A DNA stretch of 64,000 bases from Candidatus Woesearchaeota archaeon (GCA_018675335.1 JABGYH010000007.1:1-64000); one strand, 5' to 3'; positions 35,849 to 64,000 are shown, counted from the stretch's first letter. The notes: generated by a model not told the origin, from the sequence alone. Made by a program: numbers and translations.

Positions 35849-37072
35849 TTATTTTTTTGTTTTCTTTTTTACAGTAGATCTTACTTTAGATTTCTTTTTA
35901 GGTTTTGGTTTAGATTTAGGTTTAGATTTAGGTTTAGATTTAAGTTTAGATTTAAGTTTAGATTTAGACTTAGGTTGCAATTTAGATTTCGTGTTTGGTT
36001 TAGATTTAAGACTATTTTTTGAAGTTATCCCTTTTTTTTGCTTTGCTGTTGTCTTTTTCTTAACAACTTTCTTAGGTGCTTTTTTCTTAACCAATTTCTT
36101 TTTAACTATCTTAGTCTTAGTTATTTTTTTAGTCGGAGAAATATGTTTTGATACCATCGTCTTCTTTTTTTCTAAATGCTTAGATCTAACCTTATGTTCA
36201 TACATCAATTCAATACGATTCTTTGAATTGTGATGTGGTTTAATTTTCCAAATACCAATTAAACACCCAAGACTTGTTGGAATTGTAAAAATCCAAGATG
36301 CGAAAAGTACCACCAAAGTAAATGCTCCAAAATCTTCTAAAGTAAAAAATTTCCAACCAATCTTATTTGTAACGAAAAACAAAAATGAAACTAAAGTTAC
36401 AATAAATGAAATTAAAAATCCAAACAAAAAACCTTCTCTATACAACTTAATATACTTACTAGCCCAACGATCATATACCCAAACAAAATAATAACCGCCA
36501 ACAACTAACAAAATAACAAATAAACCTAAAAATATCTTATTTAACACAGCAATTGTTGACTCAGACACAGCAAGTAAGAAAAATAATCGAACAACCCCTG
36601 CAATGATTAAAACTGCACCACCAACAATTCCTGAAGACACAAAAGCTTTTTTGAAATCAACAGAGTGCGCGATCTTGTGAATAAATCTTGCTTTCAAACC
36701 ATAAAGCATACCTAATAATCCGCCCAGGGCAAAACCCACACCTAAAACTTGAAAAAACAAATCAGGACTAGAAAATAATTGAAGATTAAATAATCTAATT
36801 ACAGGAGAGAATGGAACAACAAACCAATCACCTAACGCCCAAACAAGAACTGTCATAACCACTCCAAAAATTCCAGTCAATGCACCCATAAACAAAGATT
36901 GTTCAGCAGTCACATGCTCACCATGCTTTTTATGATACACATGCGAGGCTATAAGTGAACCAAAAAATAACCAAAACAAAAAGAATCCATTAACGTAATA
37001 CAATCCAGGAATTATTGAAACTAAAGTAAAAAATAAAGCTCCAATAAATGCAGGTAAAAAAGTTCGTTCCAT
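35849..37072 (-). CDS. Polytopic membrane protein with Lys/Ser/Pro-repeat tail
   Basis: 407 residues. Eight membrane segments cover residues 5-290. The soluble tail of about 110 residues is low complexity: Lys, Thr, Ser with a KSKPKSKPKSKP-type repeat near the end. Such tails bind acidic partners (nucleic acid, acidic proteins, lipids). Family unrecognised. Last gene of the minus-strand run; likely a membrane partner of the coiled-coil proteins upstream. Confidence 0.65.
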   Translation of the reverse strand: MERTFLPAFIGALFFTLVSIIPGLYYVNGFFLFWLFFGSLIASHVYHKKHGEHVTAEQSLFMGALTGIFGVVMTVLVWALGDWFVVPFSPVIRLFNLQLFSSPDLFFQVLGVGFALGGLLGMLYGLKARFIHKIAHSVDFKKAFVSSGIVGGAVLIIAGVVRLFFLLAVSESTIAVLNKIFLGLFVILLVVGGYYFVWVYDRWASKYIKLYREGFLFGFLISFIVTLVSFLFFVTNKIGWKFFTLEDFGAFTLVVLFASWIFTIPTSLGCLIGIWKIKPHHNSKNRIELMYEHKVRSKHLEKKKTMVSKHISPTKKITKTKIVKKKLVKKKAPKKVVKKKTTAKQKKGITSKNSLKSKPNTKSKLQPKSKSKLKSKLKSKPKSKPKSKPKPKKKSKVRSTVKKKTKK

Positions 37073-37158
37073 AATTATTACACCCTTTTTTTAATTTTTA
37101 TAATAAAAACATATAATTTGCAAATTCACAGATAATGTTTTATACACACAAATTTATT

Positions 37159-38127
37159 TTATGCAGCCCTATCACGAATTTGTTTTTGTTCATCAATAAA
37201 CTCATGACGTTCTTGAGCGCGTGTTTTAATATGTTCTAAATCCATATATTCTCGAAGAGCTTGTTGTTGAATAGATTTTAATACCTTGCCAAATTTTTTG
37301 TGAACTGCACCAATACTTTTTTTCAAATGAAGCATATTATTTGATTTCGCCTCCCCTGAAATTTCTTTAAATAATTTTTCAGAGGTGTGAATAAGAACAT
37401 GCCCTTCATGCATGATATGTTCCAAATCTTCAAATTCTTCATGATATAATGCAATTAACTCTTCAAGTTTCCTATGTAACTCAACATGATTTTTAACCTC
37501 ATCTAATGAGTTTTGTAATTCATCAATTTTAGTAATAACTGTTCTTACTTCAACCGCATTATGTCTTAACCGACGCTTATGAGACCTGGGCCCCCTCAAA
37601 GATAAAAGTTCAATTTTAGTAAACCCTCGAGCTTCTGCTTTTGATATAATCCAAAAATGATGTTGTGCTTCAACCATTCTTTCAATTAAATGATCAATTT
37701 TATGAACAAGCGCTCTTTTTTCATTAATAGGAACAATAAACGCAGGATGAGAAACTAAATCCGCTGCTTTTTCTAACGAGTTTGCTTCACGAAATAATAA
37801 AGTATCATCATCTAAAACTACACCCTCTAAATCAGTTAAAGCATCACCTAAATACCTAAATGCAGTTTCAAAGTCTTTTTGTGTTTGAAGAACTTGTTTT
37901 TTATGTTGTTTTACAATATGATGTCTTTTTTTTGCAGACTCAATTTTATTTAATTCAACTAACAAATGATTTAATTCGGAAACTTCAGATTCAGACTTTG
38001 CATGCAAAAGAAGAAAATCTTTGTAAACCTCATAGAATTCAACAACTAATCTAATAATCTCAACTACCAAACCAGATGTTTGAATGAGTCGATACCCATG
38101 TTTTCTAAACGGATTTAAACTAATCAT
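37159..38127 (-). CDS. Helical coiled-coil protein, unknown
   Basis: 322 residues, almost all helix, rich in His, Glu, Lys and Leu with heptad stretches (LVVEFYEVYKDFLLLHAK; ALREYMDLEHIKTRAQERHE). No signal peptide or membrane span. No family recognised. Size and composition are like the 310-residue protein two genes upstream. Confidence 0.6.
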   Translation of the reverse strand: MISLNPFRKHGYRLIQTSGLVVEIIRLVVEFYEVYKDFLLLHAKSESEVSELNHLLVELNKIESAKKRHHIVKQHKKQVLQTQKDFETAFRYLGDALTDLEGVVLDDDTLLFREANSLEKAADLVSHPAFIVPINEKRALVHKIDHLIERMVEAQHHFWIISKAEARGFTKIELLSLRGPRSHKRRLRHNAVEVRTVITKIDELQNSLDEVKNHVELHRKLEELIALYHEEFEDLEHIMHEGHVLIHTSEKLFKEISGEAKSNNMLHLKKSIGAVHKKFGKVLKSIQQQALREYMDLEHIKTRAQERHEFIDEQKQIRDRAA

Positions 38128-38185
38128 TTTTATTTTATAAGAATCAAACCTTAAATTTAATGAAAAAAAAATTAAAAAAATTAAA

Positions 38186-38584
38186 TTACATCTCCATTAA
38201 GAATCCAGATATCAATAAAAAGAATCCTTCAACAATAAAGATAATATGGAATAAATAATCTCCAAGACCTGCTAAAAAACTTAAACTAAAAAATGCAGGA
38301 CCAATGCCAAATCCATTAAGTATTGGAAGTAATCCAATTGATAATAATACCAAAGCAACAATGATGGAAATACTACCCATACCATTACTATTAGTAATTT
38401 CAATAATTGATGCATACACAAGAAATAACGCTCCTGCAGCAATAACATAACTTAGAATATTTGTAGGCAATGATAGTGCAAACCAAGATGGACCAACACC
38501 CAACTTACTCAGTAAGGGAAGTAGCCCTAATGCAATAATTGCAATACCAACAAACATAGCAACAAAATCACGAGTCTCAAGCAT
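38186..38584 (-). CDS. Four-helix membrane protein with internal duplication
   Basis: 132 residues made of two copies of a two-helix unit: LGLLPLLSKLGVGPSWFALSL in the first and IGLLPILNGFGIGPAFFSLSF in the second. The pattern predicts four spans and a pseudo-twofold. Family unrecognised. It lies between the two coiled-coil genes. A CACCTC (GAGGTG on the mRNA) precedes the ATG. Confidence 0.65.
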   Translation of the reverse strand: MLETRDFVAMFVGIAIIALGLLPLLSKLGVGPSWFALSLPTNILSYVIAAGALFLVYASIIEITNSNGMGSISIIVALVLLSIGLLPILNGFGIGPAFFSLSFLAGLGDYLFHIIFIVEGFFLLISGFLMEM

Positions 38585-38867: not shown

Positions 38868-39791
38868 TTAACCAAGACGTTTAGCTAAAGCCGCAGTTTG
38901 TTTAATCTCTCCTTCAAGTTGAACATCAACAATTCTTAAATTATGAAGATATGCAACTTCAAGACGCTGAACAATTTCATGAGTTAAATCTTTAACATCT
39001 TTATCATCTTGTGCTGGCAATTCATGAATTCCAACTGCACGCGCAATAATTTGTAAAAACTCATAGATTTTTTTGTTTAATGCATCCCAACTTGTAAAAA
39101 CAAGTTTATCAAATTTCGCAAAATCTTTATGCAGTTTATCTTCTAAAACTTGAAGTCGTTCTAATAATTTTTTTAGATCTGGATGTTTTTTTATCTCAGC
39201 AACCATATGTTCTACACTAGAATCAGTTTTTCTAATATCACGAACAAGACGGTACTCTCCAAAATATTTCATATAACCTTCAGTTTTAACTACATCAGTC
39301 ATAACATTTCTGAAACCATGACCTCCTTCTGCACGAGCATAAGTTGCATTAATGGTTTCTCTTTGTTGTTTAACATCTGCTTTCCAAGCATTAACAATCC
39401 CTTCAAAGAATTTTCTGATTTTTGGATCTTTAACTTTCAACTTAATTAATGCAGCTTCAATTGCTTGAATTTCTTCCAAATCATGCTTTTTGTAAAGCGC
39501 AGTTGAATGAATTAAACTATACATCATCTCAAAAGCATGAACTAACTCAGTAATGATGTGTTTTTCATCATCTTGTGCATGCCTAATTAAATGTCCTTTA
39601 ATTGCTTCCTCAAGATGTGCCATATCTGCATCAATATGTTTTTCATCATTATGTGCATGTTTTGATTCTAACTTTGTTGCCATATATCTAATTATGCCGT
39701 GGAGTTTTTCTCCTTTAACTCCCGCAATATGTACTCTAGAAAGCCCATGATGAATTTGCTCGAGTAATTTTCTTTTATCTTCAGGTTTCAT
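38868..39791 (-). CDS. Helical protein with tandem H-x-x-DEKH segment
   Basis: 307 residues from MKPEDKRKLLEQIHH (ATG 39789-39791); GAGGTG lies six bases upstream. A short internal repeat, HAHNDEKHIDADMAHLEEA and HAQDDEKHIITELVHAFEM, is in the N-terminal third. The rest is helical with no membrane segment. Function unknown; membership of the cluster suggests a structural role. Confidence 0.6.
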   Translation of the reverse strand: MKPEDKRKLLEQIHHGLSRVHIAGVKGEKLHGIIRYMATKLESKHAHNDEKHIDADMAHLEEAIKGHLIRHAQDDEKHIITELVHAFEMMYSLIHSTALYKKHDLEEIQAIEAALIKLKVKDPKIRKFFEGIVNAWKADVKQQRETINATYARAEGGHGFRNVMTDVVKTEGYMKYFGEYRLVRDIRKTDSSVEHMVAEIKKHPDLKKLLERLQVLEDKLHKDFAKFDKLVFTSWDALNKKIYEFLQIIARAVGIHELPAQDDKDVKDLTHEIVQRLEVAYLHNLRIVDVQLEGEIKQTAALAKRLG

Positions 39792-39940
39792 AATAAACAC
39801 CTCGTTCTTTTATATAATAATGATTAATGACCAACCGAATATGAGTTTATATAATCAGCTGATATTTAATATTTTCTACATTTTAATTTTTAATTTAAAA
39901 AATTTAAGGTAATAATAAAATAATCCTTGAATATGACTGT

Positions 39941-42379
39941 TTAGTTACTTTTATTTAAAATATTAATATCTTTAAAAGACATCTTTCTAAGTTTTGCAGG
40001 AGTTACACTTTTTAACTCAGCCCATTTTTCTACAGAGTTAGTTGAAATCCATAACTCTTTCAAACCACCAGTAGTTAAATCAAATTTTTTCTGAAGTTGT
40101 CCAATTAATTTATCCCCTGTAATGTTTAAATGTTCACAAAGTCCATTAATAAATTCTAGCCAACCAGATTTTAATTCAATATCTCCTGAATGAAACGTTT
40201 TATCATCCCAAGCACGAACTGCTTTATCTAATTCGTCAGCTAATTTAGCGCGAGCTTCACGTTCTGAATCAGACACGGGTTTTCCAAATGTTAACATTTC
40301 CCATAAATAATCAAAACCTTGACGAAGAATGTTATAATGCGCACATAAATGATCTAAATCATTAAACTTAAGCTCTTCAGGAAGTTTAAATGCAATGTAC
40401 ACATATCTTTTTTTACGTGCAATTTTTTTGTATGTTTCATTGTATCTTAACATATGATCTTTAAGTTCTCTAAATGAATTTTCAAGTGCCATTAATTCTT
40501 CAAATTTGTATTCAGGCAAACCATCTTTATTGGTTTTTTGAGGTTTTGCAATACTTAACGCAATAAGTTCTTTTTTACCTGCTAGAGTATACATCCAAAA
40601 ATCAATTAAATCAGACTTATCAATACTTGCTTTTTTACAAATATCCTCAATATTTCCCCCGAGTTTTTTGTTATTTACTAAGAAATTAATTAAATCATTA
40701 AACCCACAATTAGCTAGTGCAGGTTTTGAATTTTTAGACTCATTATCCCACTCAGTAATTGCATCCAATAAATTATCCTCATAATCTTGTTCTTTCTTTT
40801 TCTCTTTAACTTTTTCTGTTTCAACGTCTAGAGGATTTTGCTTAACAACTTTTCCGCTTTCATCGCGCACTTCAAATTTAAATGTGTCTAGAGTGCCGCA
40901 CTGAATGATATCACCATCTGCTAAAACAAATTCTTCTTTAACTGGATTTATCATATAGACTTTTTGATTTTTAGGAATTTTTAATTGGGATTTGAAAGTT
41001 TTATCTTCTAAAAGTTTTAGTAAAGGTAAATCCTCTAACGATAAATAGAACCAACCATCAGATCTTTTAACAACTACTGGCGCGAATGCTAGTTTTCCCG
41101 GGTCATCAACTGTAGGAGTATTTCTTTTGAATACTGAAATCTTCCAGTCTTTTGAAATTGAGAACATCTTTGGAATAACATTTTTTTTATCACTCACTAC
41201 AACCCAATTACCTAATACTTTTGAACTACCAACTAATACTTCTGGTGATTCGCAATCTTCTAATCGAATCTCAGTATTCTCAACATACTCGTGCTTGCCT
41301 TCAAATACATGACTAACACTTACCTTAACATTTTTTAAAGGAATTAAAAAATGACCTTTTTTACGAGCAGTAATTACTTTATTTAACTCTTCAAGTTTAA
41401 TTTTAAGTTGTTGAACATAACCAAATATTTTATCAATTAAAAACTTCTCATGATAAATATCAATACGTTGAAACTGATTAGGATTTGGATCTGAAACTAA
41501 AAGCTCTTTTTCTTTAAGCATCTCTTCAAAATATTTTAGTAAAGCATCTTCTTTACCATTTATTGAAAGAATTTTATCAATAAGTTTAACTTCATTACCC
41601 AGTTGAACATCTTGTTCTTTTAAAATCCATAAAAATCTAAGTGAAGATATATGTAAAAAATGTAATGTAACTGCTAAAAATTTAATAAGTAATAATTCTT
41701 GATCTTCCAATGATTTAGGATTTTTAGTAATTTCAATACGTCCAGTCTTTTGATTAAGCACAATTCGTTTGTCATCAATCATTTTTTGAACTTCTGCTGA
41801 TACTTCCGATAAATTATCATTTTCAAGAAGCTTTTCTTTTGCATCTGCTTCTTTTTCTTCTTTTTGCACTTCTTGTTTAGCGCCTTTACCTAAAACATTA
41901 ATTTCAATTTTAGTTAAGTGAGCCAAAATATCTTCTTCAAGTGCTCTCATGTCTTTAACAAGTTTTGACTCTTTATTTGAAATTTCAACAATATGTTTAC
42001 ACAATATTTTTAATTTATTTAAAACTTGAATTTTATCAGTTTCACTATAAATTGCAATATAAATTGCTGCGATTGATCCTGCATTTATTTCTTTTAAACC
42101 AAACTTAGACATAACTTTTTTTAATCCTGACTCAGGAGTTTTATAAACACCCAAATGTTCTTTTAAGAACCTAATCTCAACTTGAGCATGCACAGGTTTT
42201 AACGCCTGACTCTCAACTGCAACTCTAATATGTTCATCAAGTTGAACTTGATTTAATTGTAAAAACTTCATAAATTGTTCTTTACCAAACTCTTGATCTC
42301 TAGGATAATTAAGAACTGCATTAATATTTGCAATAATATCATCATGTTCCAAAATCCGTTTAACGTGTGCTTCAACCAT
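39941..42379 (-). CDS. 812-residue helical protein with a FHA-like domain
   Basis: Mostly helical at both ends, with a beta-rich middle (about 360-510) matching a FHA-like order: ISKDWKISVFKRN, TVDDPGKLAFAPVVVKRSDGWFYLSLED, KVYMINPVKEEFVLADGDIIQCG, TFKFEV. FHA domains bind phosphothreonine. The canonical GR and SxxH residues are only partly kept, so binding is not assured. No signal peptide or span: cytoplasmic. Probably reads phosphorylation on cluster proteins. Confidence 0.6.
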   Translation of the reverse strand: MVEAHVKRILEHDDIIANINAVLNYPRDQEFGKEQFMKFLQLNQVQLDEHIRVAVESQALKPVHAQVEIRFLKEHLGVYKTPESGLKKVMSKFGLKEINAGSIAAIYIAIYSETDKIQVLNKLKILCKHIVEISNKESKLVKDMRALEEDILAHLTKIEINVLGKGAKQEVQKEEKEADAKEKLLENDNLSEVSAEVQKMIDDKRIVLNQKTGRIEITKNPKSLEDQELLLIKFLAVTLHFLHISSLRFLWILKEQDVQLGNEVKLIDKILSINGKEDALLKYFEEMLKEKELLVSDPNPNQFQRIDIYHEKFLIDKIFGYVQQLKIKLEELNKVITARKKGHFLIPLKNVKVSVSHVFEGKHEYVENTEIRLEDCESPEVLVGSSKVLGNWVVVSDKKNVIPKMFSISKDWKISVFKRNTPTVDDPGKLAFAPVVVKRSDGWFYLSLEDLPLLKLLEDKTFKSQLKIPKNQKVYMINPVKEEFVLADGDIIQCGTLDTFKFEVRDESGKVVKQNPLDVETEKVKEKKKEQDYEDNLLDAITEWDNESKNSKPALANCGFNDLINFLVNNKKLGGNIEDICKKASIDKSDLIDFWMYTLAGKKELIALSIAKPQKTNKDGLPEYKFEELMALENSFRELKDHMLRYNETYKKIARKKRYVYIAFKLPEELKFNDLDHLCAHYNILRQGFDYLWEMLTFGKPVSDSEREARAKLADELDKAVRAWDDKTFHSGDIELKSGWLEFINGLCEHLNITGDKLIGQLQKKFDLTTGGLKELWISTNSVEKWAELKSVTPAKLRKMSFKDINILNKSN

Positions 42380-42448
42380 TTTTATTAAATTTATTTTTTT
42401 AAATATTATGTTCTAAATATCATATTATAATTAAATATTAGTAAACTA

Positions 42449-43339
42449 TTAATTTTGATCATATTTTTTATGAACTAACTCTACAAACTTACCCCTAATG
42501 CCTTCTGATTGAGTTAACTTAATTGCCAATCTATCCAATGCCATAAATGCTTCAGGCATCCCTTGTTTTTTACCAATTTTATAAAAATCACTCAATACTC
42601 CATCAATAATAGTTACAATTTGATCTCCCGAAAATTGATTTTTAGATCCTTGAATAACTTTATGTTTTTTAATTCTAGATTTCAAATCTGCTAAATCTTT
42701 TGCATCAGAAATTTTATCTTTATTTCTTAATCCGCTTAAAGCTGAACTTAAACTTCGCTTCGGTTCTTTTTGAACTTGAGATTTATGTTTTTCTTCTTCT
42801 GTTAAATGACGAACTTCTTCAAGATTTTTTTTAATAAGACTTTCTTTAATCTTCCAAAGTTTTAATAATTCATTTTCTAAATGTTCCAGTTTAGATTCAT
42901 CTTTTTCAGACTCTTTTTCTTGTTTCTCAGTGTTTTCATTAGACTTTCGTCTAATTCTAATCCATAACCAAATCAATAATAAAATCGCTATTGCTGCAAT
43001 CCACCAATACCAAGGCAAAATAGAATCAGACTCTCCCTCGTTCACAACTGAAGTAGGATCATCCCCACTAAGTTCAAGATACTTGGAATTCCAAAGTGCC
43101 ATTAAATCAGAAGATCCAAAAACTGCTCCATTATCAGAATCTGCAGTCTCAACAAAAGACTTAATGTCATCTAATTCCTCAACAGAAATGCTTGAACTAA
43201 TAAGTGCTTTAATAAGATCATTAGACTCGCCAATTGTAGTTGTTACTTGAGCTTGATCTAGTGCTAAAACAAATGAAGAACTAACTAGTAATATAATCAA
43301 AAAAGGTACAAGTTTTAATAAATTAAATTTTTGTTTCAT
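42449..43339 (-). CDS. Signal-anchored protein with long cytoplasmic coil
   Basis: 296 residues. Signal peptide to about residue 26 (LLKLVPFLIILLVSSSFVLA), a 75-residue outside part, a membrane span (YWWIAAIAILLLIWLWIRIRR) near 107-125, then a charged helix (ENTEKQEKESEKDESKLEHL) and a small folded end. Type I topology. Function unknown; the external part could contact the 703-residue OmpA protein encoded just upstream (18-nt gap). Confidence 0.65.
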   Translation of the reverse strand: MKQKFNLLKLVPFLIILLVSSSFVLALDQAQVTTTIGESNDLIKALISSSISVEELDDIKSFVETADSDNGAVFGSSDLMALWNSKYLELSGDDPTSVVNEGESDSILPWYWWIAAIAILLLIWLWIRIRRKSNENTEKQEKESEKDESKLEHLENELLKLWKIKESLIKKNLEEVRHLTEEEKHKSQVQKEPKRSLSSALSGLRNKDKISDAKDLADLKSRIKKHKVIQGSKNQFSGDQIVTIIDGVLSDFYKIGKKQGMPEAFMALDRLAIKLTQSEGIRGKFVELVHKKYDQN

Positions 43340-43357: not shown

Positions 43358-45469
43358 TTATTCAACCTTGAATTTATTATGTAATTCAAATAAAATCTTA
43401 CGAGCTTTCGATATTTTATCAACTGCTGCATTTCTTAAATCTCTTCTTTGATTTAAGTTAATTTCATTCTCTTCACAATTTAATAAACATAAACCCGGAT
43501 CTGCATCAAGCTTATTTGAGTCTTCAATTAATTTTTTAGCATCAATAAGTAACTTTTTAGCATTATCAAAATTTTCTTTATCAGTTTTAGATAATTCTGT
43601 GTGACCTTCTAAAAGATAAATAATACGTTTATCTTCAGGATTGTTTGGATTTAATTTAGTTTTTTGTACACACTGAGGATCTAAACATTTGTACCAGTCA
43701 GCACCTTGTTTTACAAAACAACCCAGATCATCAATGCACTTAACACCCTCAGGAACTTTTGACTCATCAAAAGGAGGAGGCATACATGCATCAACAGTAA
43801 AACTACCCAAAGAAGGCGCAGGCAAAAAACTAGAATAATCAGATCCAGTAAATGAAATAGATTCAGTTGATATTACTGCTCGCCTATCAGAACCAAAACC
43901 ATTATTTGAAAAAGTTTTTGGAATTTCACCAATAGGATGAATTTGAACCATAGGATTTGCGAAAGTTCCCATTGCAATTGCAATATCGGCAATTTTATGT
44001 TCAATTGATTGAGCACGCTTCTCTGCTAGAACCAAGTTCTTTTTAACTGATCCTTCAGGAGATGCGAACGTATAAATATGAATTCCAGTGCCTTGTGCTA
44101 ATGCACCACGAAGATAATCTTGAAGATCTGTGTCTGAGATTTTTGGCTCAGCCTTATTATAATCAAATTCTACGTCCAATCTACAAACACCATTGATTGT
44201 TTTTCCAACTTCTATTTTTTTAGGTTTTGTTTTAGTAGTTTTTTTTGGTGTTGATTTTTTATTTTGATCATTAATACAAATAACTTTGTCATTCATAATA
44301 GTATATGGATAATTCGTTCCTTCAAACTCTGCAGTACCCAGAACTTTAATTTTACTTTCGTAATCATCCCCTTTTTCAGTTAGGGTTTCTTTAGAATTAA
44401 AAATTGACTTAACATCATTAATCCACCAGTCACGAACTTCAACACATATTTTTTCATGCGCGCCTTCAATACAATGACATTCGGAACCTACATTAATATA
44501 TTGAGTGTAGTTTTTATTTTCACACTGAACTTTTCCTTGCTTTAATTCATACTCCACATTATTATACATTATATGAGTATCTTTGCCAGGAATTTTTGAA
44601 ACAACTCTACTAGGAATTTTAGAATGACAAGTTTTTGTGTCAGGAAGTTTATCGCCGTATTGACAAACAAACATGGCGCCAGAAATAAAACTATCAACTA
44701 AATAATCTCCAGCTAGTTCAGACTCACACATAAATTCAGGCAAATCTTTAGGTATACAAGCTTTTTTATCTCCTTGACCAAGATATCTAGAATAAGAAAC
44801 ACCATTAAAAAATAGATTATTTTGAGATCTATATTCCAAAGCAGTGTAAGTTAGTTGTTTTTTTTCTAAATTTACTCCTTTAGTTTCTTTAAGTACTAAA
44901 TGTTTACCTCTTAACGCATACTCTTCAGGATTTGTAACACCTATACATTGTTCAGATTTTTTATCGACTAAATCAACTGTTCTATCTTTAATAGCACCAA
45001 GATAATGCACTCTTAATTTAATTTTTCCATTAAACGGAGGGGAAACACCTAAACTTTTAAGTTTAGCATAAGTAATAATAATTTTTGAAAACCCTTTTTC
45101 ACCAGAATAAAAATATTCTTGAGTTTTATCATAACTAGCAAAATTAGAATTAATTGTTTGATACAAATAATTTTGATACGTTTTTTTAACAGGATCATTA
45201 TGAACATAAGTAACTTCTAATTTAAAGGGGGCGCTTTTAGGAGGGCAATTATCAGTTCCAACAGTGCGTTTACCATCAATTACAACTTTAAATGGAATTT
45301 CAACAGAATCAACTAAATTAAAATCATTACCACTACCTGGCTCGCCCCAATCAAGATCAAAATCACCACTAACAGAACTAATTTCGCAATCTAAACCAAA
45401 AGCAAATGAACTAGAAATTAGAAAGGTAATTACTACTAATAATGTTAATAAAAATTTTCGCTCACTCAT
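43358..45469 (-). CDS. Secreted protein with OmpA-like domain
   Basis: 703 residues. Signal peptide (LLTLLVVITFLISSSFAFG), a Cys-containing beta-rich extracellular part (27-420), then an OmpA-like domain about 428-537: CRLDVEFDYNKAEP, IYTFASPEGSVKKNLVLAEKRAQSI, PIGEIP, DRRAVISTES. A PAPSLGS linker and a charged helical end with further Cys follow. No membrane span, so secreted or lipid-free. The murein-contacting Asp is replaced (FAS-x-EG), fitting an organism without peptidoglycan. The mRNA site GAGG is adjacent to ATG 45469. Confidence 0.75.
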   Translation of the reverse strand: MSERKFLLTLLVVITFLISSSFAFGLDCEISSVSGDFDLDWGEPGSGNDFNLVDSVEIPFKVVIDGKRTVGTDNCPPKSAPFKLEVTYVHNDPVKKTYQNYLYQTINSNFASYDKTQEYFYSGEKGFSKIIITYAKLKSLGVSPPFNGKIKLRVHYLGAIKDRTVDLVDKKSEQCIGVTNPEEYALRGKHLVLKETKGVNLEKKQLTYTALEYRSQNNLFFNGVSYSRYLGQGDKKACIPKDLPEFMCESELAGDYLVDSFISGAMFVCQYGDKLPDTKTCHSKIPSRVVSKIPGKDTHIMYNNVEYELKQGKVQCENKNYTQYINVGSECHCIEGAHEKICVEVRDWWINDVKSIFNSKETLTEKGDDYESKIKVLGTAEFEGTNYPYTIMNDKVICINDQNKKSTPKKTTKTKPKKIEVGKTINGVCRLDVEFDYNKAEPKISDTDLQDYLRGALAQGTGIHIYTFASPEGSVKKNLVLAEKRAQSIEHKIADIAIAMGTFANPMVQIHPIGEIPKTFSNNGFGSDRRAVISTESISFTGSDYSSFLPAPSLGSFTVDACMPPPFDESKVPEGVKCIDDLGCFVKQGADWYKCLDPQCVQKTKLNPNNPEDKRIIYLLEGHTELSKTDKENFDNAKKLLIDAKKLIEDSNKLDADPGLCLLNCEENEINLNQRRDLRNAAVDKISKARKILFELHNKFKVE

Positions 45470-45760: not shown

Positions 45761-46750
45761 TTAAAAACTTACAAAATAAGTTCTAATTCTTACTAAATCC
45801 TCCACTATGTCAGGAGAAAAGGCTTTATCAAATTCTCTAAATGATCTAATTAAATGGTCATTAATTAAAGCATCAGAAGGACTGCTTCTTTTCATAAATT
45901 GAACAAGATTGGCAATTTTATACGGTGCTTTTTTATGAAGTAATAATTCAATTTGTTTTAAATTACGAGTTACAATAACTGCATCATTAACCGCAGTGGG
46001 ATTTAATGGAATCCAAATGTGCTTTGGATACTCATGAAAATGAATAAAATCTTTGCCATTTTTGTGATGATAATCGTCAACAATAGCATAATGACTACCA
46101 TGCCGGACTTTATGTTTAAGAACATGCTCTTTAATCACAGAATCATTTGAACCTTGAGCACGAATAAAAATAATATAGCGACAAAGTTCAGCTGCACTAA
46201 CTTCAGGCTGCATTTTTTCAACAACAGGGTTTGTTGCAATTGTTAAAACTTTTTCTAAAACATGTTTTGTGCAAGGAATCCACCCTGCAGGAATACCAGG
46301 AATGTGTTCTACTTCATGTAATCCTGCTAACATAACATGTTTTTGATGATAATTTAAAATTTGGAATTTTTTATTTCTAAACTTAATAAATTTTTGAACA
46401 AGCAATGTATGAACATTATTACTTGGTTCTGCCACATTAAATTCAAGAATTCTTAAAAACTCATCAACAGTAAGTTCATCTTTTTCTTCTAATTCTCCAC
46501 GAGCCGCACGTTCTTTTTTAATATCTCTAAATTTCGGCACTTCACGTCTTCTATCTGCGAGTTCATGTTCTTCTCGCTCAAACGCGTTTTCTTCACCCGC
46601 TACAGTTTGTTCTTTAGCTAAAGCATGATCAAGAGCTACCATTGCACCTTTAAAATCTATATTTTCAAACGCAGATCTAGCTTGAGCTATTTGTGCTGCC
46701 AAAGATTTAACATCCACAGGTTCGTTTTTGGGTAAAGGGACTGCAACCAT
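45761..46750 (-). CDS. Unknown soluble protein of the envelope cluster
   Basis: 329 residues, family not recognised, no signal peptide or span. N-terminal third helical (ARSAFENIDFKGAMVALDHALAKEQ resembles a single TPR-like helix pair). The rest is alpha/beta with several His (KHKVRHGSHYAIVDDYHHK, FHEYPKHIWIPL). Its upstream region holds a 35-bp direct repeat (46808-46870). Confidence 0.55.
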   Translation of the reverse strand: MVAVPLPKNEPVDVKSLAAQIAQARSAFENIDFKGAMVALDHALAKEQTVAGEENAFEREEHELADRRREVPKFRDIKKERAARGELEEKDELTVDEFLRILEFNVAEPSNNVHTLLVQKFIKFRNKKFQILNYHQKHVMLAGLHEVEHIPGIPAGWIPCTKHVLEKVLTIATNPVVEKMQPEVSAAELCRYIIFIRAQGSNDSVIKEHVLKHKVRHGSHYAIVDDYHHKNGKDFIHFHEYPKHIWIPLNPTAVNDAVIVTRNLKQIELLLHKKAPYKIANLVQFMKRSSPSDALINDHLIRSFREFDKAFSPDIVEDLVRIRTYFVSF

Positions 46751-46807: not shown

Positions 46808-46870
46808 AACATTTATTTGGACATAATATTTATTTTTCATGTAACATTTATTTGGATATAACATTTATTT
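46808..46870. repeat. Tandem 28-base direct repeat, 35-bp period
   Basis: 46808-46835 and 46843-46870 agree in 26 of 28 bases (both begin AACATTTATTTGGA). The second copy runs into the stop codon of the OmpA-like gene at 46865. Possibly promoter duplication for the 329-residue gene. Confidence 0.6.
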
Positions 46871-56023: not shown

Positions 56024-56880
56024 TTTTTTGATTGAGTGTTTTGAGCAGGAGTTACCTGAGAGGACGTTTTAGCTTTTAATTCGGATTTTAATTGATTAAG
56101 AGATACAATATGACCTTGCGCTAAATTTGCATCTTCAAGATTTTCAGGAGATGTATCTGACAAAAACTTAGTTGCGGCAACTAATCGAGGATCATTATCA
56201 GACCCAGGTTCACCAACTTTTGAAGAATCATCTGATTTTGATTTATCATCAGAATTTGAAGAACTAATATCTCCAAGACCTAAATGGCCTAAAATTGAAT
56301 CCGATCCAAACATTTTTTTCAAAACTGAATTTGAATTACATGAATTATCATTACAAACAGTGACTATCAGAAAATAAAATATCACACAAGAAAGTATTAG
56401 TGCAAGAACTAATGCAATAATTGCTTTACCCGCACCTTCACCCAGAACTTTTCTAATAACCCAAAATAGCCCCCCCATTAATGCAAAGAATAAAATAATC
56501 ACACTAATTGGAAGAAGTTTAGTCACAGTAATTTTTCCTCCAAAAACAAGTCCACCAGTAAGGGCCGCACCAATTGCTAAAACTGCTAAATAAACTGCAG
56601 CGTTATTTCCCTCTCCCCTAAATTTTTGAAGTCCCATAAATGCTATGAAGCAATAAATAATCATAAAAATAAGAAAATCACCAAATGACGGAGTATCATC
56701 AAATGCGAATAATTTTTTCATTGAATTTCCAACTGCAGCCAAAGGTGCTGCTTCAGCCACTTCTGCAAACAAAGAAAATGCAAATAAACCAATAAGTAAA
56801 ACTAACAAAAACTTCAAACAATTATTTGAACTCAATATTGTATTTATTGAATTTCGTTTTTTTGTTGTTTTTTTATTCAT
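56020..56880 (-). CDS. Polytopic membrane protein of the envelope cluster
   Basis: 286 residues. A signal-like segment (FLLVLLIGLFAFSLFAEVAEAA) is followed by four to five spans to about residue 180 (AIGAALTGGLVFGGKITVTKLLPI, then VIRKVLGEGAGKAIIALVLALILSCVIFYFL). KITVTKLLPI aligns with NFSVTNLFPI in the 713-residue protein, so the membrane parts look paralogous. The end is charged and Ser-rich. Four-base overlap with the downstream gene. Confidence 0.68.
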   Translation of the reverse strand: MNKKTTKKRNSINTILSSNNCLKFLLVLLIGLFAFSLFAEVAEAAPLAAVGNSMKKLFAFDDTPSFGDFLIFMIIYCFIAFMGLQKFRGEGNNAAVYLAVLAIGAALTGGLVFGGKITVTKLLPISVIILFFALMGGLFWVIRKVLGEGAGKAIIALVLALILSCVIFYFLIVTVCNDNSCNSNSVLKKMFGSDSILGHLGLGDISSSNSDDKSKSDDSSKVGEPGSDNDPRLVAATKFLSDTSPENLEDANLAQGHIVSLNQLKSELKAKTSSQVTPAQNTQSKK

Positions 56881-56942: not shown

Positions 56943-58799
56943 TCATGCTGCTTTTTGATTTTGTACTAAACTTAACTCAGGTTTTGAGTTTGAATCTGAC
57001 GAACTATTTTGAGATTTATCTGACGAGCGTGAAACTACATTTGCAGATTTTGCATGTTTTTTTGTAGCAATATCTTTTGCAGAAAAAATACGACTCAATC
57101 CAAATGGCAATCTAAGATAATGTTTTTCTAATGGAGGTTCGCCAAGTTTAACTCTTATTTGCTCATCTTTTAATTTTCTATAAAATGCAATTTTTTGTTT
57201 TAAATTATGAATATCATTCAATAATTGTTTAATTTTAGCATCCCGTTTAGAAACATTCGATTTTATTCTTTTGTCTAATGTAACTATAAAACCAGAATTA
57301 TCATTTGCAGCAGTAAATAACTCAACAACCCGTTCTGGATCTGCCCCTTTAAAATTAGATGTTGCAACACTCCCAATAAAGTCTTCTCGTTTTGATTTTT
57401 CTTGTTGCGCTACAACCGCCAAACTATGATAATGCATAATAACTGATTTCGCAATTGCAAAATTACGATACAACTCACTTTCATCAGTTTGAATTTTTTT
57501 TAATGAATTAAGTTCATGACTCAACCCCTTTGAAAGTTTATGCGCTCTATCACTAATTGATTCAATAAATGCAACTTGTACTTTTTGAGATTTTTTCTTT
57601 AACTCTTCAAAGTATAATTTAACAATAACCTTAACTTGAGCTACTGCTTCATGCTCAACTTTACTCAACCTATCCCCTGATTTAAGATTTGAAATTAAAG
57701 AATTTAATAATTCAACAGGATTTCTTTTTGAAAACTGAGTTCTAAAAATAGTTGCATAAGCTTTATCTTTATACCTGCTTTCTAAAATTTGAGCAGTATT
57801 TTCAATTAAATGCGCTAAAACAATATCGGACAATATTGCAATCATGTTATTATCATTATAATTATTATCAAACTTACTCAAATAACTCACAATTGCTTTT
57901 GCAATAATTGTTGACGGTGAATCTTTTAAGTTCAATTGAGCCCAATAATCTGGAACGTTTTCATCAATTCCAAACGCAACTAAATAATCTATAATTTTTT
58001 GCCCATCTTTTTTTGAAAAATCTTGCAATAACTGAGCCAACGGTTTGGAGTTAACACTTGCAAGAATTTTTTTTACTGCAAATAACACAGTTACAAAAGT
58101 ACTTTTCTTATTTGTCAATAAGTCTTTGAAATGTTCTAATGCTTTTACTTCTTCAAACAACTTACCCAAAAATACAATTTTGTCAGATTGAGCTAGTTTT
58201 TTTTCTAACTTACTTTTTGGAAAATGTTTTTCAACATAATCAACAAATTGTTCAAAATACGAAACAAAATGAACAACATCTAAATGAAATACTTCTCCAC
58301 TAGCAAGATTGTTTTTTACAGAAGTAAAAAAACCAACATCTTGTTGAGGGGGAATTAACTTTTTAGCTACAAATTTTTTCATTAGTTTCGTTAACTTTGT
58401 TGCCAGCTCAGAATCATGAAAATTTGTGGTCAACCATTTACAATACTCATCTAAATGAGGTAAAAACGTATGGAAAAAGAATTCTGAAACTCTTAAACTT
58501 TTACCTGAATCTGCAAGTAGAGTTTCTAAATGCTCAAGTTCTCTACCCATCAAAGTATGAGCAAATCTTTTTCTAAACCTGCCATATAATTCGAATGTAT
58601 CTGAAAATTCAACAAATAAATCATCTAATTCTTTTGCTGCAAGTTTGAAATCAGCAGGAAGATTAGATCTGTTCACCGCAGGAGTATTTTGAGTAACTAC
58701 TCTTAAATTCGTTTTGTTACTAGCTGCATTTACTGCACTCGCAGGGTTTATGTTTGATCCAGCTACAGGACATTGATTTGAAATATTTGGTACAACCAT
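56943..58799 (-). CDS. Helical cytoplasmic protein, 618 residues
   Basis: 618 residues, nearly all helical, with heptad stretches near the end (RDAKIKQLLNDIHNLKQKIAFYRKL). No signal peptide or span; Ser/Asn-rich tail. No family recognised. A scaffold role alongside the other coiled-coil proteins is likely. Confidence 0.62.
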   Translation of the reverse strand: MVVPNISNQCPVAGSNINPASAVNAASNKTNLRVVTQNTPAVNRSNLPADFKLAAKELDDLFVEFSDTFELYGRFRKRFAHTLMGRELEHLETLLADSGKSLRVSEFFFHTFLPHLDEYCKWLTTNFHDSELATKLTKLMKKFVAKKLIPPQQDVGFFTSVKNNLASGEVFHLDVVHFVSYFEQFVDYVEKHFPKSKLEKKLAQSDKIVFLGKLFEEVKALEHFKDLLTNKKSTFVTVLFAVKKILASVNSKPLAQLLQDFSKKDGQKIIDYLVAFGIDENVPDYWAQLNLKDSPSTIIAKAIVSYLSKFDNNYNDNNMIAILSDIVLAHLIENTAQILESRYKDKAYATIFRTQFSKRNPVELLNSLISNLKSGDRLSKVEHEAVAQVKVIVKLYFEELKKKSQKVQVAFIESISDRAHKLSKGLSHELNSLKKIQTDESELYRNFAIAKSVIMHYHSLAVVAQQEKSKREDFIGSVATSNFKGADPERVVELFTAANDNSGFIVTLDKRIKSNVSKRDAKIKQLLNDIHNLKQKIAFYRKLKDEQIRVKLGEPPLEKHYLRLPFGLSRIFSAKDIATKKHAKSANVVSRSSDKSQNSSSDSNSKPELSLVQNQKAA

Positions 58800-58835
58800 T
58801 TTTTTATTTTTTTTAACTTATGTTCTAACTTAATT

Positions 58836-60332
58836 TTAAGATGAAAAAGCAGGATCTAACTGACCTCCTGAGTTTTTATCATCTTTTGATTCCGAACTTG
58901 TTCCTTCTTTTTTTGCAGGAGTGCTAGGATTTGGTGAATCTGACTTGGCGTTGTTTTTACTACCAAATAAATTTCCAATACCACTTCCGATAAATCCAAA
59001 ACTCCTACGCCAAAGAGGGGGTTTATCAACTAAACCAATAGTATCTTTCATAGAAGTTTTAGTTCGTTTCCAATTATCCATAGAATCTTGAAGATCTTTA
59101 ATCGCTTCAGGATCTTTCATATGCAACTCTCGGAAATATTTTTTAAAATCTCCTTTAACCTTAGATTTAGGAATTCCAAGTTTTTGAGCAACTTGCCCAA
59201 TAATTCCATCTTGAAGTTCTGCATCTAATTTTTCTTCATCAGAATCAAAATTAAGAAGTGGAATTGCCCCAGATAATCTTGCTTTTAGAGGATGACCTTC
59301 TTCAATTAATTGATCAACTCTAGTACGCTCTTTTTCTGATAGATTCTGATAAGTTTCAGACCAATTCTTCCCCACATTTGAAAGAATATTTTTTACATGC
59401 CCAATTAAAATCCCAACAATAATCCAAGTAAGAATTGCCTCTGCTGATCCAGGACCAGGATTTGTTTTGAAGGGATTCCACACAATTAAACTTGAATTCA
59501 CATCAACATTAGTTATAATAATTTGAACAAATGCGAAAGCTAAACCAAAAATAAATCCACTAGGTTTATCACTATTCATATTTTGGTGAAGATTAAAACT
59601 TAAAGCCATAAGAGCTGCCCACCCACCAATTAAAACTGCAATTGCCCTAGTCATCCCATCATTAGCAAATGAAAATGCAATAAATGCAGGAATAATAAAT
59701 TCCATATAAAAACCGTCAGGCAATCCAAGTTTATCTTTAAAAATAACAAACACAAATATTAAACTAACAAATGCTGCGATAAATGCAGGTAACCCTTCAC
59801 CATTCGTTCCAGTCTTTAATACTCCTTGATCAACATCTTTTGGAAAATCGCTTAACACATAAGCTCCAGGACTATTATTAACTTGAGTACAACCAATCTT
59901 TGACTCTCCATTATCACAACCCCAACCCATTACTTTGTATTCGAGGAAAGTTTTTTGCTCCCAAATATATTCTTGAGGCTCAACTAACATTGACTTTGTT
60001 ATCAAAACTGCTACGACAAATACCATTGCCCAAGCAACATACTTACTTGAGTTATCAGAAAATTTACTTCCCAAAAATACCATAAATAACACGAATAAAA
60101 CACCACAAGTTGCAAGTGTTGAAAGTATGAACTGTTTTGTCAAATAATTTAATTTAAACTCCTTAAACTTAACTTTATACTCTCCAAACTTAGATTTTGC
60201 GCCTGAGAATTTACTTTTGAATGTATCTTTAAAACCTGCTTCAACCGCAAGAGAACAAACGAACATAAATAATACTAATGAGATTAACAAAAACACAATT
60301 TTTCTTTTTTTGTTTTTATTTAGTTTATTCAT
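58836..60332 (-). CDS. Polytopic membrane protein, 498 residues
   Basis: 498 residues with a signal-like start (VFLLISLVLFMFVCSLAVEAG), two further early spans, a Cys-containing outside loop (GWGCDNGESKIGCTQV), six or so later spans to about residue 325, then a soluble tail of 170 residues ending in a Ser/Lys/Asn-rich segment. No family recognised. It starts 43 nt after the AAA-ATPase gene. A possible channel or assembly platform of the cluster. Confidence 0.65.
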   Translation of the reverse strand: MNKLNKNKKRKIVFLLISLVLFMFVCSLAVEAGFKDTFKSKFSGAKSKFGEYKVKFKEFKLNYLTKQFILSTLATCGVLFVLFMVFLGSKFSDNSSKYVAWAMVFVVAVLITKSMLVEPQEYIWEQKTFLEYKVMGWGCDNGESKIGCTQVNNSPGAYVLSDFPKDVDQGVLKTGTNGEGLPAFIAAFVSLIFVFVIFKDKLGLPDGFYMEFIIPAFIAFSFANDGMTRAIAVLIGGWAALMALSFNLHQNMNSDKPSGFIFGLAFAFVQIIITNVDVNSSLIVWNPFKTNPGPGSAEAILTWIIVGILIGHVKNILSNVGKNWSETYQNLSEKERTRVDQLIEEGHPLKARLSGAIPLLNFDSDEEKLDAELQDGIIGQVAQKLGIPKSKVKGDFKKYFRELHMKDPEAIKDLQDSMDNWKRTKTSMKDTIGLVDKPPLWRRSFGFIGSGIGNLFGSKNNAKSDSPNPSTPAKKEGTSSESKDDKNSGGQLDPAFSS

Positions 60333-60374
60333 TTTTGTTAGTTAATAGAGTAATTGAATTTATTTTATCGAGAG

Positions 60375-61577
60375 TTATCTCAAAAAATCCTCCAGCTCTG
60401 CGAGGCTTGCCAATGAAATTATATCTGAATCCTTAATTGAAATATTATTAAACATCAATTTACACCATATCTTTAGAAGAGGTGTTGCAAAAACAAAGAC
60501 TTTACCTTCCTTTTTGATAATATCAACCTCCATTAAACGCTCCAGAAGACTTTTGGTAACTGGCCCCGAACGATAAACTTGACGTGCAATTTCAGTCAAT
60601 CTTAAATCAGGATTATGAGTCATAACTTTTAGAACTACTTTTAACAAGGTTGCACCCCTAGCATTAGTTAATGCAGTAGAGTAAGTTTTATTACAAAATG
60701 AATAAAGAGGCGAAAATTTAGAAGATAAATTTTGAACGAAAAATGCAAATAAATTCTCATTAGAAATTTTAAAAGAGTCTTGTTTTGTTGATTGTTCTTC
60801 TTTAAACTTCAAATATAAAGATTTTGAAAGAGTTCTTACTAAAAAAGGAATCCCTCCCGAAAAATTATAAATTTGAGAAATTACATGCCTATCAAAATTA
60901 TACTTTAAAACTTTTTCAATATAATGAATAGTTGCATCTTTATCCCAATACTTCATTTCTAATAAATCAACTCTATATTTCAAAAGTCCAGTTAGTTTAT
61001 TTGTGAAACTTGATGAAAAAATGTAATTGACATGTTTATGAGAATTCATTCGCGTAAAAAATAAATCAAGTATATCTCTAATCTGCGAATAATTATTAAA
61101 ATCCAGTAAATTTTCAAAATTAAGAAATGCAATAGACATTTTTTGTTTAATATGTTTTGCAAAATATTCCGAAAAATCAAATGCGGACTCTAATAATAAG
61201 GTTTGATCTGGCTTTATTTTTTGTAATTCATTTTGAATTACTCCAATTATTTCTTTACATTGTTTTGATAATGCTTGCTCAATCAAAAAATCTGCATCAT
61301 AATACTTTGAACGCTCAACAGAATTATTTGAAAAATAAGACCAAACAATTGTTCCAACAAATTCAATAGAAAACTGTTCTGGAGAAATACTTAACCTGTT
61401 TAAATCACAAATTAGCGCATGTTTTGGCTTAAGACTTGCAAAATGAGTTTTTATTAATGTCTCCTTACCACAAGAATTAGGCCCTAAAACAGCAATATTT
61501 GAATTTTTCCTAAGTGCATCTAAAAAAATAGAATTATCCCAATACAACACCTCTTTTTCTGACAAAAATTTATGCAT
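60375..61577 (-). CDS. AAA-type ATPase with C-terminal winged helix
   Basis: 400 residues from ATG 61575-61577; a TTG seven codons earlier is possible, but the TATA position (about 61614-61624) fits the ATG. The P-loop is AVLGPNSCGKETLI, Walker B IAFLNFENLL, and GGIPFLVRTLSKSLY is the sensor-2 helix. A winged helix ends the protein (LRLTEIARQVYRSGPVTKSLLERL). It belongs to the archaeal-ATPase (PF01637) kind, distant kin of Orc1/Cdc6. First gene of the minus-strand operon; regulator or motor of the cluster. Confidence 0.75.
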   Translation of the reverse strand: MHKFLSEKEVLYWDNSIFLDALRKNSNIAVLGPNSCGKETLIKTHFASLKPKHALICDLNRLSISPEQFSIEFVGTIVWSYFSNNSVERSKYYDADFLIEQALSKQCKEIIGVIQNELQKIKPDQTLLLESAFDFSEYFAKHIKQKMSIAFLNFENLLDFNNYSQIRDILDLFFTRMNSHKHVNYIFSSSFTNKLTGLLKYRVDLLEMKYWDKDATIHYIEKVLKYNFDRHVISQIYNFSGGIPFLVRTLSKSLYLKFKEEQSTKQDSFKISNENLFAFFVQNLSSKFSPLYSFCNKTYSTALTNARGATLLKVVLKVMTHNPDLRLTEIARQVYRSGPVTKSLLERLMEVDIIKKEGKVFVFATPLLKIWCKLMFNNISIKDSDIISLASLAELEDFLR

Positions 61578-61598
61578 CTTTGTTCTCGCAAAACTCAA

Positions 61599-62066
61599 AA
61601 TTATTGTTTTTTTACTATATTTTACTCAAGTCAAGTATTTTTTATACCAATCGGAATATATTCAGAATTGAATACTATTTAAATCTTACTAAAATTTTTA
61701 TACAAAACCGAATATAAACAAGCTACAAAATATACCGTTCAGCATAATCATATATAAATGTTTTGAAAGTCTAATTCAGATGAATTACAAATCGGAATAT
61801 ATACCAAACTGAATAATAAAATAATTAATTAGAAAAAAAATTATTAATTAAAGAATAAAAAAAATGATTAAAAAAATAATAAATAAGTAAGAATTCCCAA
61901 TTATCCTGCGAAAGATTTAAATAATAAAAAAGAAAACAATTTCTAAATATACAATTAAAATATTTTAGTTGTATATATTATGTTTAAATTAAAAAATATT
62001 GTTTTTATTATTCAATAACAAAAATAAATAAATTTAAGCAATTATTTTCAAAAAAAAATTAAAAGG
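61599..62066. other. AT-rich divergent region with repeated CGGAATATAT
   Basis: About 470 bases between the divergent AAA-ATPase gene and the OmpA-like gene. A near-direct repeat of about 29 bases occurs at 61646-61674 and 61787-61815 (common core AATCGGAATATAT, ending in TGAATA). A weaker copy, AACCGAATATAA, is at about 61705-61718. No ORF, tRNA or terminator seen. The rest is runs of A and T. Confidence 0.5.
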
Positions 62067-64000
62067 GTGATTAACATAAAAAGGGGAAAATTAGTTCTAG
62101 CAACACTATTAATAACAATATTTATTCTATGTTCATTTGGAGCGTACGCATTAACCAACGCACAAATAAAAACAGAATTAAACAAATTAACTCCACCTGC
62201 AGCAGCTGACGTTGATGCGTTACCAGGAAAGATTTGTGAAGTACATGGATTATTTAACTTTAACGAACCCCCTCCAGTTACAGCCCAAAGTAAATTAACT
62301 GATTACGTATTAGGTAATTCTGAAACATCATTATTAGAATACTTAAACTATTTACACACATTACATTATACTGGCCCAATATACATAAGCGCTTATTCTA
62401 GTATTGATGGATCATCAACTTATAATGTTAAACTCGCACAATCACGACAAGACGCAATTGTAGAATTAATGGTAGACCTCTATATTAGTTCAGGACAATA
62501 CCAATTCCAATCAATAGGATTTGGACCAACACAAGAAACAGACATGTTTTGGCCACTTGCTGAACCACTACGAAGTGAAGTTGACAAAGCAAAAGGACTA
62601 GATAATTACAAACCATTAGTTGCTAACAGAAGATTTGTTGTTTCAACTTATGAACAACCCCTACTTACAACTGGCGCACAAGAATATGTCCAATACACAG
62701 AAGGATGTGGATTTTATGTTGAAGAAGAAGACATACCAAAACCAGATCCAGTTATTGAAAATCACCCTCCTGAAATTTTTATGATAGGAGAACAAACTAC
62801 ATTCCCTGCAAAATTCGAATTTGTAAATAATGCAGCAATTGGTTTAACAATCACAACCAATGATGCAGATTTTCCAAATGAAAGTATTTCTTATAGCCTT
62901 TCTGGTGCCCCTGCTGGAATGACCATCGCAGGATTTAATGATGGAAAACGTGCAGAACTTGATTGGACCCCTCCCGAAGAACCTACCGCAGTAACTTTTA
63001 AAATTATTGCAATCGATTCTGATGGAGAAATTGATGAAGAAGAAGTTCAATTTACATTTAAAATTGATACAGTTCCAGCAGTAATTGATCCAGCCTGCGA
63101 TAAAACAGTTGATGCATATGTTAGCAAAGGTAAAGCATATGTTCCAAATGGCGAAGGACTAACTGCAGAACAAAAAGCAAAAATTGAATCAGGAGAATCC
63201 AATGTTGATGGTTTTGATGTTTATACCCTTGCATCAGGCAAATCAAAAAATGGAAAACAATATTATAAAGAGGGCAAGGCAGTTGTTTGTATTACTGCAC
63301 TCCCATTAAAAGTTACAGAAGATGGAGATGGCACAACAACTCCTGGAACTACTGCAGATGATTGCATCTGCCCAACAAGAACAGTTCTTAATTGGTTTAC
63401 AAGCGATGAATTAGCTTCATGGTGCGGACAACCCTTCTGGTTAAAAATATTTACTTGTTGGTTAATTTTATGGATTTGGTTAATATTCCCAATTTGGTGG
63501 TTTAAACGAAAAACATTTAGAAGACTAATCAGAGAGCATAAAAAAGAAGAAGTAGCTGAAATGAAAAATTGCAAAGATGTAATAGGATTTATCAAACTAG
63601 TAAATGATAAAAAAACTAAAACTATCAAAAAAATAGAAGAAATAAATGCAAAAATTTCAAAGCTATCTGAAGAAGAAAAACAAAAATTTGGAGAACTTGT
63701 AAAACAAATAGATAATGCAAATACTTCAAAAATAATATCTCCAGAACAAGTTAAATCCAATTTAGAAGCATTAGATTTAAAACTTAAAAAAGGAAAATCA
63801 TTGAAAGAGTTAATTGAAGACAAAACATTTACCGCAGAAACATTAAAAGAATATTTAACTTCAATGAAAGAACAAACTGGCCTTACAGATTCTGAAATTG
63901 CAATAGTTCTTGAGATTGTTCTAAAACATAAAAAGGATCATGGAAACAAATTTGAAGCAAAACTCGTAATGGAAACAGCATATCATGTGCTACAAAAAAA
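62067..64000 (+). CDS. Membrane-anchored OmpA-like protein, partial at window end
   Basis: Open from GTG 62067 to the window end (over 644 residues). Signal peptide KLVLATLLITIFILCSFGAYA, then an OmpA-like domain at about 55-195 (CEVHGLFNFNEP, ISAYSSIDGSSTYNVKLAQSR, NRRFVVSTYE). A He_PIG/cadherin-like beta domain follows at about 231-334 (NDADFPNESISYSLSGAPAG). A Trp-rich span (CWLILWIWLIFPIWWF) lies near 460-480, with a cytoplasmic Lys/Glu coil after it. The GTG is preceded only by weak AGGG; ATA and ATT follow, so the exact start is uncertain. Confidence 0.75.
   Translation, partial: MINIKRGKLVLATLLITIFILCSFGAYALTNAQIKTELNKLTPPAAADVDALPGKICEVHGLFNFNEPPPVTAQSKLTDYVLGNSETSLLEYLNYLHTLHYTGPIYISAYSSIDGSSTYNVKLAQSRQDAIVELMVDLYISSGQYQFQSIGFGPTQETDMFWPLAEPLRSEVDKAKGLDNYKPLVANRRFVVSTYEQPLLTTGAQEYVQYTEGCGFYVEEEDIPKPDPVIENHPPEIFMIGEQTTFPAKFEFVNNAAIGLTITTNDADFPNESISYSLSGAPAGMTIAGFNDGKRAELDWTPPEEPTAVTFKIIAIDSDGEIDEEEVQFTFKIDTVPAVIDPACDKTVDAYVSKGKAYVPNGEGLTAEQKAKIESGESNVDGFDVYTLASGKSKNGKQYYKEGKAVVCITALPLKVTEDGDGTTTPGTTADDCICPTRTVLNWFTSDELASWCGQPFWLKIFTCWLILWIWLIFPIWWFKRKTFRRLIREHKKEEVAEMKNCKDVIGFIKLVNDKKTKTIKKIEEINAKISKLSEEEKQKFGELVKQIDNANTSKIISPEQVKSNLEALDLKLKKGKSLKELIEDKTFTAETLKEYLTSMKEQTGLTDSEIAIVLEIVLKHKKDHGNKFEAKLVMETAYHVLQK

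Follow-up and report, generated by a model that had tools for sequence, protein, structure and literature searches.

A conserved cluster of polytopic, OmpA-like and coiled-coil proteins in Woesearchaeales, possibly a membrane-anchored surface complex

Sixteen genes on one strand and a divergent seventeenth form one unit in the genome of a Candidatus Woesearchaeota archaeon, and the order of these genes is shared by four genera of one Woesearchaeales family. The window that we analysed is the whole stretch of 64,000 nucleotides, the first 64 kb of contig C7 (564,275 bases) in a genome of 1.71 Mb that is 97% complete. Fifteen genes occupy positions 35849-61598 of its minus strand and a PAC2 gene follows as the sixteenth on the same strand, with intergenic distances of -8 to 291 bp in the block and two overlaps; the divergent gene, omp1611, encodes a protein of 1,611 aa and runs out of the window (Table 1). 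The products of the cluster may assemble into one membrane-anchored supramolecular complex of Woesearchaeales, for which surface contact or attachment, or anchoring of the envelope, is the likeliest role; we give this reading an even chance of being right. Woesearchaeota rank with the most diverse archaea that have yet to be cultured, and very little is known of how they meet partners or organize their envelope. The cluster may offer a hint of how archaea this small construct or use their surface, and a conserved membrane system that has a defined core and is present or absent by species offers a concrete target for correlation with lifestyle.

Table 1. Genes of the cluster, in window coordinates
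Gene	Coordinates	Strand	Features
PAC2-family protein	35060..35803	-	terminal gene of the cluster in several families
mem407	35849..37072	-	polytopic; Lys-rich tail
cc322	37159..38127	-	coiled coil, soluble; slot-conserved
tm132	38186..38584	-	small, 4-TM; slot-conserved; also in the G091 cluster of another family
h310	38868..39800	-	helical, soluble; family-wide conservation
812-aa protein	39941..42379	-	soluble, mostly helical, beta-rich middle
sp296	42449..43339	-	signal peptide, short ectodomain, one TM, cytoplasmic tail
omp703	43358..45469	-	Cys-rich; signal peptide; OmpA-like domain
s329	45761..46750	-	soluble; slot conserved in G001, G003, G007, G008
omp713	46865..49006	-	signal peptide, 4-TM paralogous domain, OmpA-like/Cys-rich ectodomain, TM, cytoplasmic tail
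giant coiled coil, 1,667 aa	49171..54174	-	degenerate FHA (aa ~1121-1284); PPP phosphatase (aa ~1285-1640)
sp618	54167..56023	-	signal peptide, ectodomain with Cys motif, one TM, cytoplasmic coiled-coil tail
tm286	56020..56880	-	4 TM and signal peptide; domain paralogous to tm498 and omp713
s618	56943..58799	-	helical, soluble; distantly homologous to Y, a protein of other families
tm498	58836..60332	-	core gene; ~6 TM and signal peptide
aaa407	60375..61598	-	core gene; P-loop ATPase, ATPase_2/STAND-like, with winged helix
omp1611	62067..64000 (on to C7:66902)	+	signal peptide, OmpA-like/Ig-like ectodomain, TM, ~1,130-aa cytoplasmic tail

Evidence for the unit comes from the relatives. We searched 59 of them with omp713, which gave matches throughout the window's family, and the matched contigs were then read for gene order. 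The same order was found in the four genera (the window with G001; G002, G006 and G008; G003; G005 and G007) and is maintained despite low identity, running from PAC2 through cc322, tm132, h310, the 812-aa slot, sp296, omp703 and s329 to omp713, the giant coiled coil, sp618/tm286, s618, tm498 and aaa407. No single relative displays every slot because several contigs are broken, and only a diverged ATPase-tm498 pair was seen on the short contig of a fifth genus (G004). The divergent omp1611 adjoins aaa407 in G001 and G008 too. When cluster genes of at least 130 aa were counted, 15 of the 17 had homologues in the cluster loci of family relatives, compared with 8 of 58 flanking genes (4 of 36 on the left and 4 of 22 on the right, where all matches came from a same-genus genome). 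The cluster of neighbouring envelope and coiled-coil genes described in an earlier note on this sequence is thus real, and its genes keep their order in family relatives rather than being scattered. The joint occurrence of OmpA, FHA and PPP members, the lack of which that note would have taken as refutation, was borne out for OmpA and FHA, which stand in the same slots of relatives, but not for PPP, which is limited to the window's genus. Homologues of mem407 were not found in the cluster loci of relatives; the gene occurs only in the window and probably lies outside the system. A papain-like protease takes one of the cluster slots in the genus of G002 and G006 (L034:8532-10472, L037:7679-10291).

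We examined domain content with Pfam, NCBIfam and PADLOC and predicted topology by a simple hydropathy scan. The scan assigns a signal or TM segment to nine proteins of the block, omp1611 among them, where eight had been claimed. Cys motifs, claimed for two proteins, are present in omp713 and sp618. A single paralogous signal-peptide/TM domain is common to tm498, tm286 and omp713 (profile match of 98.6% between tm498 and tm286), and it matched no known family or fold. The AlphaFold model of tm498, made from 23 sequences, is all helical and of middling confidence (pLDDT 71.6, pTM 0.48); neither this model (best E 0.87, that is, no match) nor the tm498 profile matched any structure in the PDB. 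In omp713, the OmpA-like/Cys-rich part is predicted to lie between the signal peptide with four TM segments and the later single TM segment, and the cytoplasmic tail carries an Ig/E-set-like domain, while the predicted layout of sp618, sp296 and omp1611 is a signal peptide followed by an ectodomain, a single TM segment and a lengthy tail. In several members, a short Cys-rich/OmpA-like region is joined to a TM segment and to a long stretch of helix or coiled coil. The predicted coiled coils come after the TM segment, SMC-like coiled-coil matches occur among the cluster proteins, and the bulk of the protein mass is helical or coiled coil and predicted to be on the cytoplasmic side.

The ATPase and tm498 form a near-invariant core that extends beyond the family. 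The ATPase profile (A4) matched 32 of 288 sampled Woesearchaeales genomes, and the 15 ATPase matches in a sample of 279 genomes from the phylum all fell within Woesearchaeales. Most of the named carrier records are Candidatus Woesearchaeota MAGs, chiefly of groundwater origin, and one is an Omnitrophica bin; the order name is one that we infer. A tm498 homologue adjoins the ATPase wherever the contig continues, with G213 as the exception. Other families have, after the pair, a soluble domain (fused or separate), a helical Y protein and a Z protein, which resembles the fused soluble domain. The Y protein and s618 are distantly homologous (profile match 95%, E 3.7e-8), and sp618 matched the slot family g725 (profile match 96.4%). 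Profile comparison gave no significant match between h310 or cc322 and the small helical proteins of other families (T334, T341, T367), and none between the Z protein and either s618 or s329. In a tree of 31 ATPases, the window's family groups together with modest support (85/65), and the deep backbone is unresolved. The ATPase-tm498 pair also occurs in the Omnitrophica-labelled bin (L066), where it groups 100/100 with a woesearchaeal sequence and is therefore a misassigned contig or a transfer.

The AAA-ATPase of the earlier note, aaa407, is a P-loop ATPase of ATPase_2/STAND-like type, with winged-helix matches at the C-terminus; the ATPase_2 profile was matched by 7 of 13 members. Walker A is present in most members, including that of the window, with Lys replaced by Arg in G002 and G008. 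As the Asp of Walker B is missing in the window, G002 and G008, we regard the protein as a possible nucleotide switch and not as an established motor.

Of the three OmpA-like domains that had been claimed, that of omp713 passes the Pfam cut-off for OmpA (PF00691) at 31-35 bits; those of omp703 and omp1611 score below it, yet an iterated profile search places all three in one family. Fusions of OmpA to this membrane domain occur in three families (f1, f76 and f79), the two further families being represented by G084 and G087. Of the 32 ATPase carriers among the 288 genomes, 11 have OmpA, versus 11 of the 256 non-carriers (Fisher p 1.7e-6); without the window's family, the figures are 4 of 23 versus 11 of 255 (p 0.026), both comparisons being uncorrected for shared ancestry. 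In two of the four carriers outside the family (G132 and G153), the OmpA gene lies off the cluster contig. Because the Z architecture of other families is mostly without OmpA, the core does not require the domain. OmpA domains of the usual peptidoglycan-binding kind have an Asp in the motif GHTD. Among the residues for peptidoglycan (DAP) binding, Ser replaces this Asp (GFASKEG) in the cluster copies that were read, and the Arg of LSxRRA is kept. An S-layer protein gene (S_layer_C, 40 bits) lies ~19 kb beyond the cluster (L004:5528-8011), and the organism therefore probably has an S-layer.

The phosphorylation-related domains had been read as a sign that assembly or signalling depends on Thr phosphorylation. 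The PPP domain of the giant protein is clear (50 bits; GDIHG, GDYVDRG, GNHE and HGH all intact), with PDB matches to Rhizobiales-like phosphatase 2 (E 4.5e-10), and within the family it was found in the window's genus only. The FHA domain of the 1,667-aa protein was not detected by Pfam, and stands by homology to the FHA domains of relatives (profile-profile 97%, E 1.1e-10; shuffled controls below 1%), which are Pfam-positive (PF00498) in the giant slot of G006, G007 and G008. A second FHA domain that had been placed in the window's 812-aa protein was unconfirmed (AlphaFold pLDDT 46, profile-profile 3.6%); the same slot in G007 does carry a Pfam FHA of 39 bits. In the window and G001, GTSNES stands where GR is expected and SxxH is absent, so that the pThr-contact Arg and Ser/His are missing; Lys replaces the contact Arg in the aligned FHA domains of G002, G006, G007 and G008, and another FHA of G007 retains GR. 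The kinase at 21257-23140, proposed as a partner, lies 12 kb from the cluster and had no orthologue in nine family genomes, sister species included, where only generic kinase-domain matches were obtained; we rejected it as a partner. Kinase matches occur in nearly all sampled genomes of the order. The case for dependence on Thr phosphorylation is therefore weak, given an FHA without pThr-contact residues and a PPP confined to one genus.

Elsewhere in the order, a cluster of another family (G066) has a different metallophosphoesterase fused to a signal-peptide/TM coiled-coil protein (L117:17277-20000). In another Woesearchaeales family, a single ~12,000-aa open frame (G033:C21:1799-37696; L126/L127) has kinase, FHA and PPP matches. 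Kinase-domain matches were also obtained in a ~17,300-aa open frame (G016:C36; L138). In the window's own genome, genes for a ThiF-like E1, a JAB-domain protein and a transglutaminase-core protein adjoin among unknown proteins (L004:9798-17698, equivalent to G000:C7:89798-97698), possibly a ubiquitin-like modification cluster. The window further encodes a secreted 761-aa protein that is densely packed with Cys/His repeats and belongs to no Pfam family (9649-11934); a 417-aa protein without a Pfam match, with a hydrophobic N-terminal segment, beta-rich by eye and ending in Phe (18960-20213); two proteins of equal length (305 aa) and similar N-terminus, which are probably paralogous regulators (20397-21314 and 34078-34995); and a cysteine-synthase-like frame of only 194 aa that appears shortened (26990-27574).

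How the products might work together can be sketched from their domains. The paralogous polytopic proteins tm498, tm286 and omp713 would form a membrane core, with the OmpA-like/Cys-rich domains directed outward, where they may grip the envelope, the wall polymer of a partner cell or another subunit. Beneath the membrane, a scaffold would be formed by the coiled-coil tails together with the soluble helical proteins, and FHA domains may serve in it as adaptor modules. The STAND-like ATPase could act as an assembly or nucleotide-state switch, maybe a catalytically weak one in the window's lineage, and in the window's genus members of the complex could be dephosphorylation substrates of the PPP domain carried by the giant protein of the scaffold. 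The conserved unit and its envelope and membrane character agree with the single supramolecular envelope structure suggested in the earlier note; that the products form a complex, and what it does, we infer from sequence, and it is the types of domain present that point to a contact apparatus. More specifically, the cluster may encode an archaeal surface organelle of a new class, restricted to Woesearchaeales: a dedicated STAND-like ATPase and polytopic paralogues would assemble, with a giant coiled-coil scaffold as base, into a trans-envelope complex for partner-cell contact, a proposal that we make tentatively and regard as doubtful.

Other explanations account for parts of these data. Three multi-TM paralogues beside an ATPase would also suit a machine for secretion or for DNA or protein translocation, with the paralogues as channel and the ATPase as power, and the FHA, OmpA and phosphatase parts recall the threonine phosphorylation set of the type VI secretion system (T6SS; PMC5995506). 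Such a machine is nevertheless unlikely: the VipB sheath gene is missing in nine family genomes, the cluster holds no T2SSE/CpaF ATPase and no secretion-family Pfam match above cut-off, and its own ATPase is of the STAND/ATPase_2 type with a degenerate Walker B in several members. Still less probable is an envelope sensor or assembly system under Thr-phosphorylation control through kinase, FHA and PPP, as the earlier note had it. The intact catalytic motifs of PPP, the giant-slot FHA of several genera (one, in G007, with the GR motif) and the kinase, FHA and PPP matches within one frame of the distant relative G033 speak for it, but it has to contend with the degenerate FHA of the window, the restriction of PPP to a single genus of the family, and a kinase that is unlinked and orthologue-less in an order where kinase matches are near-universal.

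The predominance of helical and coiled-coil mass predicted to be cytoplasmic, with its SMC-like matches, could instead indicate a membrane-attached scaffold that is cytoskeletal or serves division or cell shape, the surface domains being no more than anchors; occurrence in 32 of 288 genomes is too patchy to fit an essential division role well, and we consider this scaffold about as improbable as the translocation machine. That unrelated envelope genes have become neighbours by chance is largely refuted and retains only a very slight probability: some slots do swap (the papain-like protease in G002 and G006, mem407 in the window only), but conservation of 15 of 17 genes together, against about one-seventh of the flanks, and an order retained across genera at low identity contradict it.

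By its parts list, the nearest analogy is the T6SS with a threonine phosphorylation pathway (TssL/TagL OmpA, Fha, PpkA, PppA). Both have OmpA-like, FHA and Ser/Thr phosphatase domains, polytopic membrane proteins and an ATPase; the cluster, however, is archaeal, its FHA in the window is degenerate and its phosphatase is of the PPP type, whereas PppA of the T6SS is a PP2C-type phosphatase. No sequence relation between T6SS core parts and the cluster genes was found: the sheath TssC/VipB was absent from all nine family genomes (with a positive E. coli control), Tss core families gave nothing above the Pfam cut-off in the cluster genes, TssN being only weak (E 0.63 and 0.025), and neither a cluster-linked Ser/Thr kinase nor a pThr-competent FHA was found in the window. 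Identity with the T6SS, whose OmpA, FHA and phosphatase set is described with its threonine phosphorylation pathway (PMC5995506), was rejected on the absence of the sheath gene. A defence system was also rejected, as PADLOC gave weak matches only (mad8, ZorB).

Among single components, OmpA-like anchors of the YfiB, PA1041 and MotB type likewise place the domain after a membrane segment, but the cluster joins it to a polytopic domain that is itself novel and to a Cys-rich module, and the GHTD Asp is replaced. Profile matches relate aaa407 to ATPase_2/nSTAND P-loop ATPases with a winged helix, from which its subfamily differs in being dedicated, with an invariant NELxKIKP motif and a tie to a single membrane partner. 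The type-IV-pilus/coiled-coil-protein loci of DPANN Cluster 2, which were proposed for cell-cell interaction and are defined by CpaF/TadC (PMC11291902), resemble the cluster in their coiled-coil proteins and differ from it in that CpaF/TadC genes are absent from its Pfam matches; as the pilus-type (T2SSE) ATPases of the genome lie only outside the cluster (C9:103 kb, C7:204 kb and C1:53 kb), identity with such a locus was rejected. A search of openly accessible journal papers found no description of a Woesearchaeota or DPANN system with OmpA(-like) and FHA domains, in agreement with the earlier view that no archaeal system of this make-up had been described. Because the hallmarks of the T6SS and of the DPANN pilus loci were not found, we call the system new in kind, with its complex and function as proposed here; as a contact apparatus, should it prove to be one, it would stand beside the type-IV-pilus loci that have already been put forward for DPANN archaea (PMC11291902).
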